Shown here in pieces: positions 26,754-63,963 of a DNA stretch of 64,000 nt. The notes under the pieces are model-generated. The model was not told the DNA's origin. It searched no databases and saw only the letters and a list, made by a program, of their open reading frames with translations. The position numbers were made by a program, and so were the translations under genes. Source of the DNA: an uncultured Lachnospiraceae bacterium (GTDB lineage: Bacteria > Bacillota > Clostridia > Lachnospirales > Lachnospiraceae); assembly GCA_945868305.1 (NCBI GenBank), contig CAMBKU010000003.1, forward strand, positions 1-64,000, in the 5' to 3' direction. Position 1 is the stretch's first letter. Each line of letters starts with the position of its first letter.

Positions 26754-28367
26754 CTATTCAGCCTCCCGGATCACTTTACGCACCGGAAGAATGCAGCCCG
26801 GAGATACAGACAGTTCATCCAGTCCCATCTTTAAGAAACGCTCCGTCAACTCTGTATCTGCACCAAGTTCTCCGCAAATACCAGCCCAGATTCCTTCCGC
26901 ATGCGCATTTTTCACAACACGCTCAATCAAACGTAATACAGCCTCATGATGCGGATTATAGAAACGATCCAATTTACTGTTCTGGCGGTCAATGGCAAGG
27001 GTATACTGAGTCAGGTCATTTGTTCCAATACTGAAGAAATCTACTTCCTTTGCCAATTCGTCACTCATTACTGCAGCCGCCGGAGTCTCAATCATGATGC
27101 CCTGCTCTACTTCGCCAAACGGGATATTTTCCTTCGTAAGCTCGTCTTTTACTTCTGCAACAATCTTTTTGATTTCACGTACTTCATCTACAGAAATAAT
27201 CATCGGGTACATGATGGCTATATTTCCATAGTTGCTGGCACGGAACAGTGCCCGAAGCTGTGTTTTAAAAATTTCAGGCTGGGTCAGACAGATTCGAATG
27301 GCCCGATAACCAAGTGCCGGGTTATCCTCTTTCCCCAGATTAAAATAATCCACCTGTTTATCTGCTCCAATATCAAGTGTACGGATAATAACCTTCTTAC
27401 CTGCCATAGTCTCTGCCACCTTACGGTATACGGCAAACTGTTCTTCTTCTGTTGGAAAATCATCTTTTTCCAGATACAGGAATTCGCTTCGAAACAGACC
27501 GATTCCTCCTGCATCGTTTTCCAACACACTTGCAAGATCTGAAACATTTCCAATGTTGGCATAGAGATTGATTTTCTGCCCGCTTTTTGTTACATTTTCT
27601 TTTCCTTTCAAGGTTAAAAGAAGTTCTTTTTGTTCTTCGTCTTTTTTACGTTTTTCTTCATACTCTGCCAGCGTTTTTTCATCCGGTTCTACAATAATCT
27701 TTCCTTCATAACCATCCAGTATGGCAGTTTTTCCATTCCAGGATTCATCAATATCTACGCTGATAAGCGCCGGAATGCCCATTGTTCTCGCAAGAATAGC
27801 AGTATGGGAATTTGCAGAGCCAAGGTGGGTAACAAAGCCAAGAAGCTTACTTTTATCCATCTGTACGGTTTCACTTGGCGCCAGATCCTCTGCCGCAATA
27901 ATGACCGGTTCATCGCCGATATCCGAGCCGGTATCGTTACCATTCAATATTGTAATAACACGTTCAGAAATATCCTTTACATCTACGGAACGGGCTTTAA
28001 AATATTCATCATCCATATCTGCAAACATTTTTGCAAAATTATCTCCGGTCTGTGCCACCGCATACTCAGCGTTTACATTCTGTCCTTCAATCAGATTTTG
28101 AACGGAATCGTTGTAGTCTCCATCTTCTAACATCATTGCATGTACATCAAAAATCTGTGCGTTTACCTCGCCTACTTCTTTCAGCGCCTTTTCATAAAGC
28201 ACATGAAGCTGTGCAATGGCTTTTTGCTTTGCCTCCTCATAACGCGCCAGTTCTGCTTTACTATCTTCTATTTTCCTTCTTGCCACCTGATTTTCTGTCT
28301 TTTTTAACACTCGGATTTTTCCAATTGCCACTCCGTGAAATACTTTTTTTCCTTCTTTATATTCCAT
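26754..28367 (-). CDS. ptsI: PTS enzyme I (phosphoenolpyruvate-protein phosphotransferase)
   Basis: 537 residues, a little shorter than the usual 570. It takes phosphate from PEP and passes it to HPr. The phosphohistidine is in GSANSHTAILARTMG (about 190), PEP-binding blocks RSEFLYL and GIMIETPAAAVM follow, and GICGELGAD holds the active-site Cys. Start ATG at 28367 with an AGGAG-like site. It ends a dedicated beta-glucoside operon; whether it is the only EI of the cell cannot be told. Confidence 0.95.
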   Translation of the reverse strand: MEYKEGKKVFHGVAIGKIRVLKKTENQVARRKIEDSKAELARYEEAKQKAIAQLHVLYEKALKEVGEVNAQIFDVHAMMLEDGDYNDSVQNLIEGQNVNAEYAVAQTGDNFAKMFADMDDEYFKARSVDVKDISERVITILNGNDTGSDIGDEPVIIAAEDLAPSETVQMDKSKLLGFVTHLGSANSHTAILARTMGIPALISVDIDESWNGKTAILDGYEGKIIVEPDEKTLAEYEEKRKKDEEQKELLLTLKGKENVTKSGQKINLYANIGNVSDLASVLENDAGGIGLFRSEFLYLEKDDFPTEEEQFAVYRKVAETMAGKKVIIRTLDIGADKQVDYFNLGKEDNPALGYRAIRICLTQPEIFKTQLRALFRASNYGNIAIMYPMIISVDEVREIKKIVAEVKDELTKENIPFGEVEQGIMIETPAAAVMSDELAKEVDFFSIGTNDLTQYTLAIDRQNSKLDRFYNPHHEAVLRLIERVVKNAHAEGIWAGICGELGADTELTERFLKMGLDELSVSPGCILPVRKVIREAE

Positions 28368-28446: not shown

Positions 28447-28704
28447 TTACAAATTTTCTTCAAAAAATGTTTTCATGGCATCCAATGCCATTGTTTCATC
28501 GGTTCCATCGGCCGAAACAGTTACTTCATCTCCACACTTGACACCCATTGCCATAACTGCCATCAGCCTTGTAGCATCAGCATTCTTACCATTACAGGAA
28601 AGTGTTATATTTGCTTCAAATTCCTTTGCTGCCTTTGCCAACATACCGGCCGGTCTTGCATGAATTCCGATTTCATCTTTAATTGCGTAATTAAATGATA
28701 CCAT
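28447..28704 (-). CDS. ptsH: HPr phosphocarrier protein with Arg at position 46
   Basis: 85 residues. The phosphotransfer site is intact in EIGIHARPAG (His15). By direct numbering residue 46 is Arg in DATRLMAVM, where Bacillus HPr has the Ser that HPr kinase phosphorylates. So it should work in sugar uptake but not as the Ser46-P corepressor of CcpA. It is the fourth gene of the beta-glucoside operon, just before ptsI. See the HPr-like protein at 58144. Confidence 0.93.
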   Translation of the reverse strand: MVSFNYAIKDEIGIHARPAGMLAKAAKEFEANITLSCNGKNADATRLMAVMAMGVKCGDEVTVSADGTDETMALDAMKTFFEENL

Positions 28705-56999: not shown

Positions 57000-58022
57000 A
57001 TGCGAAAGAAAATTGTATCAGTTATCGGAATTTTATGTTTTATCGGAATTCTTCTTATTTTTTATAAAAATTCATCCCTGGAGGAAACGGATACCACCAT
57101 TTCTAAAACTGGATTTTATTTTGACACAGTCATCAAAATCACTCTCTATGATACAGACAACGAAACTTATCTCGACGAATGTTTTGCTCTGGCGGAAAAA
57201 TACGAAAATCTGCTCAGTACCACCATTACAGAAAGCGATGTTTCCAAAATTAACGTTTCCGGCGGTACACCGGTTGTTGTTTCCGATGAAACCCGAGAAC
57301 TGATTGAGTACGGAATATACTATGGGAATTTAAGCAGTGGAAATTTTGACATTACAGTTGGAAAGCTTTCTTCACTGTGGGATTTTTCTGAAAATTCAGG
57401 AACCGTGCCTGACGCAGATGCCATCGCTTCCGCAGTTTCTACCATCGGATACCAGGATATTAACCTGACCGATAATACTGTCACCCTGTGTAACCCCGAT
57501 GCCTCTATTGATCTCGGTGGTATTGCAAAAGGCTTCATCGCCGATAAAATGAAAGCTTACTTAAATGAAAACGGTGTCACAAGCGGCATCATCAATCTGG
57601 GTGGAAATGTGCTGACTCTGGGCGAAAAGGAAGACGGTTCCGATTATATCATTGGCATTCAAGAACCATTCTCCGACACTGGAACCGCCCTTGCTACGGT
57701 ATCGGTCAAGGATGCTACTGTCGTAAGTTCCGGTGTTTATGAGCGATATTTTAAGAAAGATGGCAAACTGTATCACCATATCTTAAACCCAAAGACTGGT
57801 TATCCCTACGAAAACGATCTGACTGGTGTCACCATCATATGTGAGCACTCTGTAGACGGAGATGGCCTAAGCACCACTTGCTTTTCTTTGGGACTCACCG
57901 ATGGGATGAAACTTATCGAATCGCTCCCCAACACAGAAGCTATCTTTATTACCTCCGACGGAGAACTTCATACTTCTTCTGGAATTGGAACTACTATTCC
58001 CTTCGAACTCCTAACTGAATAA
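57000..58022 (+). CDS. apbE: FAD:protein FMN transferase ApbE
   Basis: 340 residues. One N-terminal membrane segment (about 5-22) without a lipobox Cys suggests an anchored enzyme facing outward. ApbE blocks are TGFYFDTVIKITLYD, SIDLGGIAKGFIADKM, GIINLGGNV and HHILNPKTGYPYEN with the metal-binding residues. It attaches FMN through a phosphoester bond to Thr or Ser in proteins such as RnfG and RnfD. The Rnf operon is encoded 0.8 kb away on the opposite strand, the most likely target. Confidence 0.94.
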   Translation: MRKKIVSVIGILCFIGILLIFYKNSSLEETDTTISKTGFYFDTVIKITLYDTDNETYLDECFALAEKYENLLSTTITESDVSKINVSGGTPVVVSDETRELIEYGIYYGNLSSGNFDITVGKLSSLWDFSENSGTVPDADAIASAVSTIGYQDINLTDNTVTLCNPDASIDLGGIAKGFIADKMKAYLNENGVTSGIINLGGNVLTLGEKEDGSDYIIGIQEPFSDTGTALATVSVKDATVVSSGVYERYFKKDGKLYHHILNPKTGYPYENDLTGVTIICEHSVDGDGLSTTCFSLGLTDGMKLIESLPNTEAIFITSDGELHTSSGIGTTIPFELLTE

Positions 58023-58087: not shown

Positions 58088-58131
58088 CAAAAAAGGATTT
58101 TTACCGAAACAATGGTAAAAATCCTTTTTTG
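58088..58131. terminator. Bidirectional terminator between apbE and the HPr-like gene
   Basis: AAAAAAGGATTTTTACC and GGTAAAAATCCTTTTTT form a perfect stem with a short loop, with A and T runs on both sides. It serves the two convergent genes. Confidence 0.93.
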
Positions 58132-58143
58132 ATACCTTATTAA

Positions 58144-58380
58144 TTAATCAATCACATAATCCTGCAAATGCTGAATAACTTTTTTGGCTTCTGCATCATC
58201 TGCATGAATAGACAATTCTACACACTTTTTCAAATTCAGGCTCATAACACCAATAAGAGACTTGGCATCGACGCACCCCCGTCCGGATTCCAAATCAAAA
58301 TCGCAATTATACTTCTGCAAAATCTGAATAAACTTCCCCACTTTTTCCGGTGAATTAATTAATACATTGACTTTTTTCAT
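58144..58380 (-). CDS. HPr-fold protein lacking the phosphohistidine but keeping the Ser46-type motif
   Basis: 78 residues. The fold and block VDAKSLIGVMSL are those of HPr. The catalytic region is changed: where HPr has IHARPA this protein has NSPEKVGKF, so there is no His15. The Ser before LIGVM (residue 41) matches the kinase site of HPr/Crh. It therefore resembles Crh in logic: no sugar phosphotransfer but possibly regulated by HPr kinase. Crh itself has Gln in place of His15. Monocistronic, with its own promoter and terminator. Confidence 0.8.
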   Translation of the reverse strand: MKKVNVLINSPEKVGKFIQILQKYNCDFDLESGRGCVDAKSLIGVMSLNLKKCVELSIHADDAEAKKVIQHLQDYVID

Positions 58381-58420: not shown

Positions 58421-58449
58421 AATATACACTTAAATTTTTCTATTTTCAA
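58421..58449 (-). promoter_or_regulatory. Promoter of the HPr-like gene
   Basis: TTGAAA, 17 bases, TATATT on the minus strand, 41 bases before the start codon. The ribosome binding site is weak (AAAAGGG more than ten bases upstream). Confidence 0.65.
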
Positions 58450-58618
58450 CCTTCAATGGAATATTTGTCAGTATTCCTATTTTTTTTTACATTTACTCTG
58501 TTTTATGACATGTTTTTACATTCTTTTACTTTTCGTTTTTCGTTTAATTGTAACATATGTATAAATTAATTCTTTATTTTTGTTTTTTCCTATCATTTTA
58601 TATATATTGTCTCACATT

Positions 58619-58632
58619 TGAAAACGTTACCA
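58619..58632. promoter_or_regulatory. cre site (CcpA box)
   Basis: TGAAAACGTTACCA matches the catabolite-responsive element consensus TGNAANCGNTNNCA at all fixed positions. It lies in the 440-base gap between the HPr-like gene and rnfB. On the minus strand it overlaps a weak promoter-like pair (TTTTCA, 16 bases, TATAAA) that would read into the HPr-like gene. The rest of 58450-58618 is very AT-rich with nothing else I recognise. Confidence 0.65.
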
Positions 58633-58666
58633 TTTTTTACCTTACAGCAAAAAAAGCATTAATTAA

Positions 58667-58769: not shown

Positions 58770-58801
58770 AAAAAGAAAGTGCCTGATAAACAGACACTTT
58801 C
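58770..58801 (-). terminator. Terminator of the rnf operon
   Basis: On the minus strand GAAAGTGTCTG and CAGGCACTTTC form the stem followed by TTTTTG, shortly after the rnfB stop codon. Confidence 0.9.
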
Positions 58802-58820: not shown

Positions 58821-59612
58821 TTAAAGAATAATCTTCTTTGGACATTTTTCGGCGCAAACACCACAACCAGTACATTTACTCTGATCAATATATGCTACAT
58901 TGTCCACAACATGTACTGCATCACTCGGACAATTTTTCTCACAAAGATGACAGCCGATACAACCAACAGAGCATGCCTTCATAACATCTTTGCCCTTATC
59001 CTTAGAACTGCACTGTACCAGATGCTTTGCGTTATACGGTACAAGCTCAATCAAGTGTTTCGGACATGCAGCCACACATTTACCACAAGCCTTACATACT
59101 TCTTTGTCTACCACTGCAATACCGTCTACAATGTGAATTGCATCAAACGGGCAGGCTTTTACACAGCTTCCATACCCAAGGCATCCATAATTACAAGACT
59201 TTGGTCCTCCGTTTGGCACAAATGCCATTGCCGAACAATCCTCTACACCTGAATATTCATAATCACGGTTTGCTTTTTCACAGTTACCTGCACATTTTAC
59301 AAAAGCAACCATTTTCTCGCCTTCATCAGCTTTTACTCCCATGATTTCACCGACCTTGGCAGCAACTGGAGCGCCACCTACCGGACACTGATTCACCGGA
59401 GCTTCGCCTTTTACGATAGCAGCAGCAAGACCGGAACATCCAGCATAGCCACAGCCACCACAGTTATTTCCAGGAAGAACATCTAAAATGGCTTCTTCCC
59501 TTTCATCTACTTCTACTTTAAATTTTTCTCCGGCGATTCCGAGGAAAAATCCAATAAAAATACCTACGCAGCCAACAACAACGGCCGCAATAATAATTGC
59601 TGTTACGCTCAT
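58821..59612 (-). CDS. rnfB: Rnf complex iron-sulfur subunit RnfB
   Basis: 263 residues. An N-terminal membrane anchor (about 5-27) is followed by the 4Fe-4S domain with GNNCGGCGYAGCSGLA and CPVGG, then several ferredoxin-type clusters: CLGYGSCVKACPFDA, CKACGKCVAACPKHL, CHLCEKNCPSDA and CTGCGVCAEKCPKK. It is the likely entry point for electrons from ferredoxin. Last gene of the operon, before a terminator. Confidence 0.96.
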   Translation of the reverse strand: MSVTAIIIAAVVVGCVGIFIGFFLGIAGEKFKVEVDEREEAILDVLPGNNCGGCGYAGCSGLAAAIVKGEAPVNQCPVGGAPVAAKVGEIMGVKADEGEKMVAFVKCAGNCEKANRDYEYSGVEDCSAMAFVPNGGPKSCNYGCLGYGSCVKACPFDAIHIVDGIAVVDKEVCKACGKCVAACPKHLIELVPYNAKHLVQCSSKDKGKDVMKACSVGCIGCHLCEKNCPSDAVHVVDNVAYIDQSKCTGCGVCAEKCPKKIIL

Positions 59613-59625
59613 TATATTTTCCCTC

Positions 59626-60201
59626 CTAAATCATACCTGAGAATCCCATGAATGCAATAGACATGAGACAGGCTGTAATAAGTACGATCGCAGTTCCCTG
59701 AAAGGTTTTCGGGATATCATTGTATTCAATCTTTTCACGCAGACCAGCCATGATTACGATTGCAATAAAGAATCCCACTGCTGTTGCAAAACCATTGATG
59801 ACGCTTTCCAAAATACCAAATTCCTTGGTTACATTAGTTAGACAAACGCCAAGTACCGCACAGTTTGTTGTAATAAGCGGCAAATAAACACCAAGTGACT
59901 GGTACAATGCCGGCATGGATTTCTTTAAGAACATCTCAACAAACTGAACCAGTGCCGCAATAACAAGAATGTATACAATAGTTTTCAAATATTGAATATC
60001 TAACGGTGTTAATATAAATTTGTAAATCAAAGCTGTGATAAAGGAAGAAATCGTAATAACGAAAATTACGGCTCCACCCATACCAGCAGCAGTTTCTGTT
60101 TTCTTGGATACGCCTAAGAACGGACAGATACCAAGAAACTGGCTTAACACGACGTTGTTAACGATTGCAGAACCAACTGCAAGTAAAAGTAATTCTTTCA
60201 T
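59626..60201 (-). CDS. rnfA: Rnf complex membrane subunit RnfA
   Basis: 191 residues, six membrane segments, starting KELLLLAVGSAIVNNVVLSQ and containing FLGICPFLGVSKK, where the Cys pairs with one in RnfE to hold a membrane 2Fe-2S cluster. The related half VYLPLITTNCAVLGVCL carries a second conserved Cys. It forms the ion-translocating core together with RnfE. Confidence 0.96.
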   Translation of the reverse strand: MKELLLLAVGSAIVNNVVLSQFLGICPFLGVSKKTETAAGMGGAVIFVITISSFITALIYKFILTPLDIQYLKTIVYILVIAALVQFVEMFLKKSMPALYQSLGVYLPLITTNCAVLGVCLTNVTKEFGILESVINGFATAVGFFIAIVIMAGLREKIEYNDIPKTFQGTAIVLITACLMSIAFMGFSGMI

Positions 60202-60215
60202 CCGTATCTATCCTC

Positions 60216-60926
60216 CTATTCTGTTTTAGCCGATTCCGGCTTTTTTCCGGTACACATTGCAGACTGTCCGCAGGATGCACAATCTCCAGTCAAACATCCG
60301 GACGGTGCCGGCAATGGTTTGCCCTTTGCTTCCATCTTTTTACGGATAATATTCATGCCTGCTACCAAAAATGCCAGAACCAGGAATGCCCCCGGAGCCA
60401 TAACAAAAATGGTAATCGGTGTAAACCAGTCTAAGGATAATACCTGAAAACCAAACAACTGTCCTGCACCTAAAAACTCTCTGACAAGACCAATACTTGT
60501 AAGACCAACGGTAAATCCAAGCCCCATTCCAATACCATCAAAGATGGACGGAACGATTGGATTCTTGGACGCATAGCTTTCGGCACGTCCCAGAATAATA
60601 CAGTTAACAACAATAAGTGGAATATAAACACCTAAAGATGCAGACAAACTTGGCGTATACGCTTCCATAATAAACTGTACTACTGTAACCAGTGATGCCA
60701 CGATAACGATGTAAGCCGGCATACGGACACCATTCGGAATCACTTTACGAAATGCTGAAATCAGCAGATTAGATAAAATAAGTACAACGGTAGTAGAAAG
60801 TCCCATTCCAAGTCCGTTGATGGCAGAGGATGTAACCGCAAGTGTTGGACACATACCAAGCATCAGAACGAAAGTCGGATTTTCTTTAATAATTCCGTTA
60901 TATAAACGTTCTACATTTTTATTCAT
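60216..60926 (-). CDS. rnfE: Rnf complex membrane subunit RnfE with a Cys-rich tail
   Basis: 236 residues, six membrane segments, homologous to RnfA (PTFVLMLGMCPTLAVTSSAIN and VYIPLIVVNCIILGRAES). After the last membrane segment an extra tail carries CLTGDCASCGQSAMC, a CX4CX2CX5C arrangement not present in the core RnfE fold. This might bind a metal or Fe-S cluster. The gene overlaps or abuts rnfG by one base. Confidence 0.95.
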   Translation of the reverse strand: MNKNVERLYNGIIKENPTFVLMLGMCPTLAVTSSAINGLGMGLSTTVVLILSNLLISAFRKVIPNGVRMPAYIVIVASLVTVVQFIMEAYTPSLSASLGVYIPLIVVNCIILGRAESYASKNPIVPSIFDGIGMGLGFTVGLTSIGLVREFLGAGQLFGFQVLSLDWFTPITIFVMAPGAFLVLAFLVAGMNIIRKKMEAKGKPLPAPSGCLTGDCASCGQSAMCTGKKPESAKTE

Positions 60927-61534
60927 TACTGCGCACCTCCCAAGTCACTGTTAAAGTATGAAAGCGCTGCATTGACACCATTTGCAATTGCTTTTGAAGT
61001 AATGGTTGCTCCGGAAATGGATTCAATCTGATTATCTGCAGACGGGGCTGATTTTACAACCTCAAAGCTTTCTACCTGTTTTCCTTCGAACTGTCCGTAG
61101 AACTCCTCATCCTCTGCTTTCATACCAAGTCCCGGTGTCTCTGCGATACTGGTGATGGAATAGCCGTTTACAGTTCCATCATTCTGAATACCTACAGAAA
61201 AAGTAATGTTATCCTGGCTGGCATCCTTTGCCGTAACGGTTACAACATAACCAATTACATTGCCGCTTGCATCTTTTGCTTCCTGGATATCATCAATAGA
61301 GTCTTCATATCCTTCTGCAACTACAGCAGCCGTTGCCGCATCCTTGTCAAATCCCTCCAATGCACTAAAGGAATCCGCATCCGAAAACACTTCCTGATAA
61401 GCAGCCTGTGCTGCGGCAAGATTTGCAGCCGCAATCGGCTCTTTGGTAATCTCATAAACAAGACCGAGTACGGTACCAAGCACCAGGGTAAAAGCTGTTA
61501 AAATAAGAGCGTCATGTACAATTTTCTTATTCAT
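60926..61534 (-). CDS. rnfG: Rnf complex flavoprotein RnfG
   Basis: 202 residues. An N-terminal membrane helix (about 9-30) anchors an extracytoplasmic FMN-binding domain. The flavinylation motif is ISGATITSKAI (SGAT, with Thr as the FMN site), and GYSITSIAETPGLGMK is typical. ApbE, encoded 3 kb away, should attach the FMN. It overlaps rnfD by eight bases. Confidence 0.95.
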   Translation of the reverse strand: MNKKIVHDALILTAFTLVLGTVLGLVYEITKEPIAAANLAAAQAAYQEVFSDADSFSALEGFDKDAATAAVVAEGYEDSIDDIQEAKDASGNVIGYVVTVTAKDASQDNITFSVGIQNDGTVNGYSITSIAETPGLGMKAEDEEFYGQFEGKQVESFEVVKSAPSADNQIESISGATITSKAIANGVNAALSYFNSDLGGAQ

Positions 61535-62468
61535 TCTTTTTTGCCTCCTTTACCTGACCGAATGCTTTCGGTACTGTAAATTTCTCAATAATCGGTACAA
61601 GAACGTTGCTCAAGATGATAGCAAAAGATACGCCCTCTGCATTTGCACCGAATACACGGAATAATCCGGTCAATACACCAAGACAAATACCGAAGATAAT
61701 CTGACCTTTTGGTGTGATTGGAGAAGTTACATAGTCAGTTGCCATGAAGAAAGCTCCAAGCATCAGACCACCACCGCAAAGTTCTGCTACGATGTAATTC
61801 CAGTCAAATCCGTGTCCTCCGAATAAAAGAAGGAAAATCACGAATGTAATGATATAAGTTCCCGGAATACGCAAATCAATCACGCCCATAAGAATCAGGA
61901 AAATCGCACCAATTAAAATGCAAATTACAGACGTTTCACCAATCGTACCTGCGGTACGTCCGATTAACATATCCATAACATTTACTTCTTCTCCGTTTCT
62001 AAGCTGTGCCAACGGAGTTGCTCCGGTTACACCATCAAAAGTAAACTTTGTCATATCTGCTGCAAAAGCAATCAAAAGGAAACATCTTGCACCCAGTGCC
62101 GGGTTCATGAAGTTCTGTCCCAGACCGCCAAACAGCATTTTTACGATAACAATAGCAAACACACCACCGATAACTGCTTCCCACCAAGGAAGTGTCGGCG
62201 GAAGATTTAATGCCAGCAAAAGTCCCGTAACAACGGCACTCAAATCATTTAATGTACTTTTTTTATGTACGATTTTTTCAAAAATCCATTCGGAAGCTAC
62301 ACAGCTTGCGATAGTTACTAAAATCAGGACCAATGCATGCAGTCCAAAATTGACGATACCAAATATACTGGCTGGTAATAATGCAATAATCACATACAGC
62401 ATGATTCTGCTGGTTGTGTCTTTATCGCGCACGTGTGGTGATGAAGAAACATGATATAAATCACTCAC
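61527..62468 (-). CDS. rnfD: Rnf complex membrane flavoprotein RnfD
   Basis: 313 residues, nine or ten membrane segments. It starts LYHVSSSPHVRDKDTTSRIM; the covalent FMN motif is GVTGATPLAQL (TGAT), at about 160. It holds FMN and possibly riboflavin and takes part in ion translocation. Second gene of the operon, after rnfC. Confidence 0.95.
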   Translation of the reverse strand: MSDLYHVSSSPHVRDKDTTSRIMLYVIIALLPASIFGIVNFGLHALVLILVTIASCVASEWIFEKIVHKKSTLNDLSAVVTGLLLALNLPPTLPWWEAVIGGVFAIVIVKMLFGGLGQNFMNPALGARCFLLIAFAADMTKFTFDGVTGATPLAQLRNGEEVNVMDMLIGRTAGTIGETSVICILIGAIFLILMGVIDLRIPGTYIITFVIFLLLFGGHGFDWNYIVAELCGGGLMLGAFFMATDYVTSPITPKGQIIFGICLGVLTGLFRVFGANAEGVSFAIILSNVLVPIIEKFTVPKAFGQVKEAKKNE

Positions 62469-62492
62469 AGATATCCACCTCTTTCTACTGTA

Positions 62493-63812
62493 TTATTTCT
62501 TTTTTCTTTCTGCTAAAATTGTCTTTTTCATTGTCTTAATGGACTGTGCAAGCTGTCTCTTTGCCGGGCAGATAAAACTGCAGCTGCCACATTCTACACA
62601 TTCCATACCATTCCATTTTTCAAACATATCGGACAGACCGTTGTTTGAGAATTTTGCAAGTCTGGATGGAATCAGCAGTTCCGGACAGGCCTCAACACAA
62701 CGACCACAGTTAATACATGGAGAAGGCTCGAATTCTGCTACTTCATCTTTTGTCAGACATAATAAAGCAGATGTTGTCTTTGTGGTTGGGATATTCAGAT
62801 CAAAAAGAGCAAATCCCATCATAGGACCACCTGCAATGATTTTTTCCGGCTGTTCCTTAAATCCACCCGCTGCATCTAAAAGCTCTTGAAAGCTTGTTCC
62901 GATGCTAAAACGGAAATTACACGGATCACTTACGGCATCACCAGTAACGGTAAAGATTCTTTCGGTAACTGGCTTACCCAATTTTACCGCATTGTAAATA
63001 GAGATAATAGTCTCTACATTATCTACTACACATCCCGCATCTGCCGGAAGCATCTTGGAGTTGATAGCACGTCCGGTCACGGCATAAATAAGCTGACGCT
63101 CACCACCCTGCGGGTACTTCGTCATGAGCTCTGCCACTTCCATGCGAGGTTCATCTTTTACAAGTTCTTTTAATTTTTCAATACAATCCGGCTTGTTATT
63201 TTCAACACCGAATACGCCCTTGGCATTGTCAAAGAGCTTCAATACAATACGCATGCCCTCTACTAATTTTTCCGGATCCTCCATCATTCTACGGTAATCA
63301 GACGTCAGATACGGTTCGCACTCTGCGCAGTTGGCAATTACGTACTCGATTTTCTCCGGCTCCTTTGGTGATAATTTTACATGAGTTGGGAAACCTGCTC
63401 CACCCATACCTACCACACCTGCATTCTTAATCCGCTCAATAATTTCTTCCTTTGAAAGCGAATCAACATTGTCAGCCGGGGAATAGGTAACTTCCTTATA
63501 CTCTCCATCATTTTCAATGATAATGGAATTCACCATATCGCCCACTGAAACACGGCGCGGTTCAATCGCTTTTACTGTACCGGATACGGACGAAAATACC
63601 GGAGATGAAACAAAGCCTCCTGCTTCTGCGATCATCTGACCTTTTAACACCGTATCGCCTACAGCGACAATAGGTTTTGCCGGTGCACCGATATGCTGAG
63701 ATACCGGATAAACCAGTTCACCTTTGGGTAGTAATTCACGTGTCGGCTTATCTTTTGATAAGTCCTTCCCCTCATAGGGATGGACACCGCCTTTAAATGT
63801 CAATAAACCCAT
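62493..63812 (-). CDS. rnfC: Rnf complex NADH-side subunit RnfC
   Basis: 439 residues from the ATG at 63812 (MGLLTFKGGVHPYEGK); the track's longer start lies in the leader. It has the NQO1-like FMN/NAD-binding part (GMGGAGFPTHVKLSPK, IANCAECEPYLTSDY) and two 4Fe-4S motifs (CINCGRCVEACPE and CVECGSCSFICPAKR). It passes electrons to NAD+ in the ferredoxin:NAD+ oxidoreductase, which pumps Na+ or H+. First gene of rnfCDGEAB. Confidence 0.96.
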   Translation of the reverse strand: MGLLTFKGGVHPYEGKDLSKDKPTRELLPKGELVYPVSQHIGAPAKPIVAVGDTVLKGQMIAEAGGFVSSPVFSSVSGTVKAIEPRRVSVGDMVNSIIIENDGEYKEVTYSPADNVDSLSKEEIIERIKNAGVVGMGGAGFPTHVKLSPKEPEKIEYVIANCAECEPYLTSDYRRMMEDPEKLVEGMRIVLKLFDNAKGVFGVENNKPDCIEKLKELVKDEPRMEVAELMTKYPQGGERQLIYAVTGRAINSKMLPADAGCVVDNVETIISIYNAVKLGKPVTERIFTVTGDAVSDPCNFRFSIGTSFQELLDAAGGFKEQPEKIIAGGPMMGFALFDLNIPTTKTTSALLCLTKDEVAEFEPSPCINCGRCVEACPELLIPSRLAKFSNNGLSDMFEKWNGMECVECGSCSFICPAKRQLAQSIKTMKKTILAERKKK

Positions 63813-63884
63813 TTTCCTGTGCCCCACTTTCTCTTTAAATTGTAATCTCAATATAAGTACAATCCTCTTTGTACTGTCTTTGTA

Positions 63885-63893
63885 ATTATAGCA
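63885..63893 (-). promoter_or_regulatory. Extended -10 promoter of the rnf operon
   Basis: TGCTATAAT on the minus strand, an extended -10 element about 73 bases before the rnfC ATG. No good -35 at 17 bases; TTGTGA lies 19 bases upstream of the -10. Confidence 0.65.
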
Positions 63894-63963
63894 CAATTTT
63901 GGGCGAAAATCACAATGAATTTGTATTTTTTTTGTATTTTTTCCAGAATTATCAACGAATTTA

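Follow-up and report, generated by a model that had tools for sequence, protein, structure and literature searches.

The gene under study lies on the minus strand at positions 58144..58380 of the window, the 64,000-nucleotide stretch of Lachnospiraceae DNA that was analysed, and is an open reading frame with an ATG start that encodes a 78 aa HPr-fold protein without the His15 loop. Its upstream neighbour in both members of the genus is the rnf operon rnfCDGEAB (58821..63896, minus strand), whose order is the same at locus L050 and whose RnfB has Fe-S domains. Its convergent neighbour is apbE, a flavin transferase gene (57000..58022, plus strand; Pfam ApbE, 2e-85). A hairpin with a T-run closes the rnf operon between rnfB and the gene (58770..58800, minus strand), and a similar hairpin is found at the orthologous locus. 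A second hairpin, with an A-run and a T-run on either side, separates the gene from apbE (58090..58129, no strand assigned) and is likely a bidirectional terminator. Both hairpins were read from the sequence; the scan did not report the second.

The promoter-like sequence TTGAAA-N17-TATATT (58421..58449, minus strand) precedes the gene. Its score in the promoter scan is by itself at chance level; identical hexamers with identical spacing stand upstream of the orthologue in R. hominis, a species of the same genus whose protein is 78% identical. Because rnf ends in the hairpin and T-run, and in both species the gene is preceded by TTGAAA-N17-TATATT, the gene forms its own transcription unit, in agreement with the original prediction that it stands alone with its own promoter. 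That prediction also placed a consensus cre box upstream. The cre-like palindrome ATGGTAACGTTTTCAA (58618..58633, minus strand) does fit published consensuses, with 0.15-0.28 such matches expected per window under two stricter patterns and 1.7 under the loosest, but it lies ~240 bp upstream of the start codon, and the R. hominis orthologue is not preceded by such a box. The box was rejected as a sign of CcpA because it is not conserved and because cre-like operators serve other LacI regulators, as reported for one in C. phytofermentans (PMC5171806).

An HPr fold without the phosphocarrier loop

The protein's match to the Pfam PTS-HPr profile (PF00381; E 2e-11, 44 bits against a cut-off of 23) places it in the HPr superfamily, and the alignment covers only profile positions 19-79, leaving the His15 part unaligned. 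Its AlphaFold model, built with 20 relatives as input, has an HPr fold with a pLDDT of 94, and the closest solved folds are HPr, Crh and HPr bound to HPrK or CcpA. When the protein is aligned to the HPr, NPr and Crh paralogues of this genome, codons 9-14 (58339..58356, minus strand) encode NSPEKV, a shortened helix-1 N-cap that replaces the GIHARPA loop, and both His15 and Arg17 are missing. The kinase site is intact: VDAKSLIGVMSL aligns to the kinase-site helix of B. subtilis HPr (PDB alignment), and Ser41 (codon 58258..58260, minus strand), the equivalent of Ser46 in that protein, is the presumed target of HPrK. An HPr-fold protein that lacks His15, has an altered IHARPA region and keeps the Ser46 motif is what had been predicted. 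With the His15/Arg17 loop cut out and a plain helix cap in its place, alignment and model firmly predict that the protein cannot accept phosphate from Enzyme I.

Compared with known systems, the protein shares its fold and PF00381 with the phosphocarrier HPr (PtsH), but the active-site His15 is absent from both the PF00381 and the paralogue alignments, the gene is unlinked to ptsI, and the score of 33.8 bits falls under the 47.9-bit cut-off of the NCBIfam HPr model TIGR01003. In this genome, ptsI (Enzyme I; 26754..28367, minus strand) adjoins a PTS HPr gene (28447..28704, minus strand) whose product has His15 and an Arg at position 46.

In Crh the loop persists with a substitution at position 15; the protein retains Arg17, is encoded beside whiA and works with CcpA. 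The window protein resembles Crh of Bacillus subtilis in its HPr fold, its lack of a phosphorylatable His15, its Ser46 block and the presence of HPrK in the genome. However, its position 15 is non-His by deletion of the loop and not by substitution; the loop is shortened, Arg17 is missing, the locus is another, the tree position is outside the Crh types (SH-aLRT 99), and its family does not co-occur with CcpA. The predicted difference from Bacillus Crh is borne out by the shortened loop and the missing Arg17, and the predicted Crh-like character has support in principle, but the protein is not Crh. Arg17 is named as a CcpA contact residue in Horstmann et al. 2007 (title, as cited in PMC4591507), and a Crh-like protein, Ccel_0806, has been reported in C. 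cellulolyticum (PMC3656788).

HPr-fold genes and the His-less family

Seven HPr-fold genes were found in the genome with Pfam, and a profile of the window protein's relatives added an eighth. Besides the window gene, the seven comprise two PTS-type HPr genes whose products carry Arg46, one NPr-like gene adjoining glmM, a helicase-linked gene (G000:C112, L007), a gene near an AGCS transporter gene, and a Crh-type gene (C5:31751-31987; G000, L002) with Glu15, Arg17 and Ser46 that sits beside whiA/rapZ, with hprK ~4 kb away. The eighth gene, at C6:48185 beside mtaB, is the parental gene of the His-less family. Its absence through genome incompleteness had been suspected after PF00381 missed it, an explanation dropped once the gene was found. 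The window gene is a duplicate of this mtaB-linked parent, specific to the genus Roseburia, where we provisionally place the window organism.

The window gene was also considered as this genome's Crh and rejected, as the gene at C5:31751 holds the whiA/rapZ locus. The whiA-linked Crh-type proteins of Clostridia resemble the window protein in carrying Ser46 without the carrier histidine and in occurring in the same genomes as the His-less family, but they retain Glu/Asp15 and mostly Arg17, and are here the product of a separate gene.

The same HPr types recur across further Lachnospiraceae genomes. Their PTS HPr has His15 in 22/22 sequences and Ser46 in only 3/22, the 19 others having Arg (nine), Lys (seven), Gly (two) or Gln (one). 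The Crh type combines Glu, Asp or Ala at position 15 with Ser46 in 21/21 (Arg17 in 16), and the NPr type has both His15 and Ser46 in 26/26. For these counts at positions 15, 17 and 46, a B. subtilis HPr sequence served as the alignment anchor only. There is a division of labour between a PTS HPr without Ser46 and other HPr types that carry it. The proposal that the window gene complements an Arg46 HPr was partly right: the PTS HPr does have Arg46 and the loss of Ser46 is general in Lachnospiraceae (19/22), but a lone Crh-like gene filling the gap was rejected in view of the at least eight HPr-fold genes, the whiA-linked Crh type among them. The HPr-like protein encoded near the AGCS transporter gene and prs has His at position 15, Asn17 and Ser46 (G000:C1:34068-34304, L005; G122, L121).

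The search across Lachnospiraceae that the original prediction had proposed, run with the window protein, gave a match at E 1e-3 in 199/200 genomes, of which some weak ones could belong to other HPr types; the top 30 matches proved on inspection to be family members. A family profile found matches in 300 of 391 Clostridia genomes at E 1e-3 and in 217 at E 1e-15 (~55% strong), and a genome is called family-positive by this score cut-off (E < 1e-15). Here and for CcpA, E-value and bit thresholds serve as proxies for orthology, and some of the genomes are incomplete MAGs. Ser41, Lys40 and Gly44 are invariant in 132/132 family sequences and in 15/15 deeper paralogues (147/147), and Ser10 is found in 130/132 family members. 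The window protein has the family's traits, namely the shortened loop, the invariant K-S-x-x-G, and F17, D29, D38 and S47, and a tree from a short alignment places it inside a His-less clade that stands apart from HPr, NPr and Crh with an SH-aLRT of 99. No NCBIfam model reached its cut-off for the family members tested, and the literature library searched returned nothing specific to the His-less family.

Some His-less HPr relatives have other neighbours. Four adjoin a MATE exporter, some also guaA (L277, L282, L283 and L284; Pfam-tested in L283), and three adjoin a DEAD_2/Helicase_C_2 helicase (G000:C112 at L007, L281 and L286; Pfam-tested in L281).

Co-occurrence with HPrK and CcpA

HPrK is present in this genome and in 193/200 Lachnospiraceae. 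Across Clostridia the family is tied to HPrK, which occurs in 206/217 family-positive and 100/174 family-negative genomes (Fisher 6e-20, uncorrected for phylogeny); the 11 family-positive genomes without a detected HPrK are all listed as 61-95% complete. CcpA above the NCBIfam cut-off was found in none of the 200 Lachnospiraceae or 391 Clostridia genomes. As this cut-off is too strict for Clostridia, we used a threshold of 300 bits together with a motif check. Among HPrK-positive Clostridia, 206 genomes then have the family only, 38 have CcpA only, and none has both. These co-occurrence counts follow lineages, so that independent events are fewer than genomes, and the 38 CcpA-bearing genomes fall in seven families, with few independent events. 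Six CcpA-bearing genomes were inspected, and all carry the motif Y-[DE]-x-G...R...K; one family-positive genome reaches 290 bits to the CcpA model and lacks the Arg of this motif. At the level of the family, the gene is thus kept where CcpA is absent, which the original prediction had named as a refuting outcome, and the predicted role as a CcpA co-repressor is not supported.

Proposed role and its alternatives

The family tracks HPrK and avoids CcpA, and therefore probably reports sugar status by a non-textbook route. We propose that the window protein is a dedicated carrier of a Ser-phosphorylation signal, phosphorylated by HPrK, standing outside the PTS and acting on a target other than CcpA, with sugar uptake as the likeliest target class; the arguments for and against this proposal appear to us evenly balanced. 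Based on the invariant site and the co-occurrence, HPrK would phosphorylate Ser41 when glycolytic intermediates are high. The mutual exclusion with CcpA suggests that the phosphorylated form would bind and modulate a non-CcpA target, and for the family as a whole this could be sugar uptake, through inducer exclusion at the ATPase of an ABC transporter. Sugar uptake is the likeliest class because two relatives, in two other genera, lie in operons with an ABC sugar transporter, a MalK-type ATPase and a GH32 hydrolase gene (G124 and G195; L051 and L285), although this shared context could be one transferred operon. As a counterpoint, the parental gene has mtaB/thiI beside it instead of sugar genes, and the window copy has rnf/apbE.

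There is a precedent for such control. P-Ser-HPr has been reported to inhibit maltose ABC ATPases in L. casei and L. lactis, the same has been proposed for Listeria, and repression of the Listeria maltose genes depends on HprK and is independent of CcpA (PMC2860498). By analogy, Ser46 phosphorylation that controls sugar uptake without CcpA is the mode that we favour for the His-less family, which may perhaps act by inducer exclusion; the difference is that an ordinary HPr does this job in L. casei and L. lactis. More broadly, and with less confidence, we put forward the possibility that in clostridia without CcpA, HPrK signals through His-less HPr-fold proteins. These would work on transporters or other targets directly, individual pathways would have recruited copies of their own, and the PTS HPr has given up Ser46. 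If true, catabolite control in gut Lachnospiraceae and their relatives would be largely independent of CcpA. A conserved family that is linked to HPrK, excludes CcpA and has an invariant serine is a testable candidate for the missing output in the sugar ranking of gut Lachnospiraceae without CcpA.

Several other readings were weighed against this signal-carrier role. As a co-effector, the protein might serve some LacI-family regulator other than CcpA, one that has assumed the role of CcpA, which would suit a genome with 11 LacI-family regulators and the cre-like operator of the C. phytofermentans regulator. We consider it unlikely: the CcpA model picks up general LacI proteins too, and 53/217 family-positive genomes have no match to it whatever. 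In addition, the full CcpA phosphoprotein-binding motif is found in 0/11 LacI proteins of this genome (one of them is too short for the motif to be visible). The equivalent of Arg304, anchored by literature and a PDB alignment, was discarded as a stand-alone marker of CcpA as it is unspecific; the genome's LacI proteins have Arg there without the remaining motif.

The genomic surroundings raise a second reading, also improbable in our estimation, in which the protein controls what the adjacent genes encode, namely tRNA modification by MtaB/ThiI in the case of the parental gene and Rnf/ApbE in that of the window copy. The family gene adjoins mtaB in most loci inspected, often with thiI and nifS beyond, and the window copy, which is not beside mtaB, is linked to rnf in both genus members. 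However, the parental genes and mtaB are transcribed divergently, rnf has a terminator and the window copy a promoter of its own, and further copies adjoin MATE/guaA, helicase or ABC/GH32 genes.

In another reading, the protein would compete for HPrK as a substrate or sink and in this way adjust how the kinase acts on the Crh-type and NPr-type proteins; the several Ser46 proteins in one genome and the tight co-occurrence with HPrK speak for it. Yet family conservation reaches past the kinase helix (NSID, SGRY and LDLSKP), suggesting a further partner, and we rate this reading as quite improbable. The Crh-type CcpA co-repressor that stands in for an Arg46 HPr, as originally predicted, has in its favour the HPr fold, the Ser46 block and a nearby cre-like box; it is very improbable, given the loss of the Arg17 equivalent, the separate Crh-type gene, the unconserved box, and a CcpA that is found above the strict cut-off neither in this genome nor in the sampled Lachnospiraceae and Clostridia and is never found with the family at 300 bits.

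A decaying, functionless relic is hardly credible: the window gene is more diverged than its parent, but its dN/dS against the R. hominis orthologue is 0.18 (dS 0.9), indicating purifying selection, its promoter is conserved, and every invariant residue is retained.
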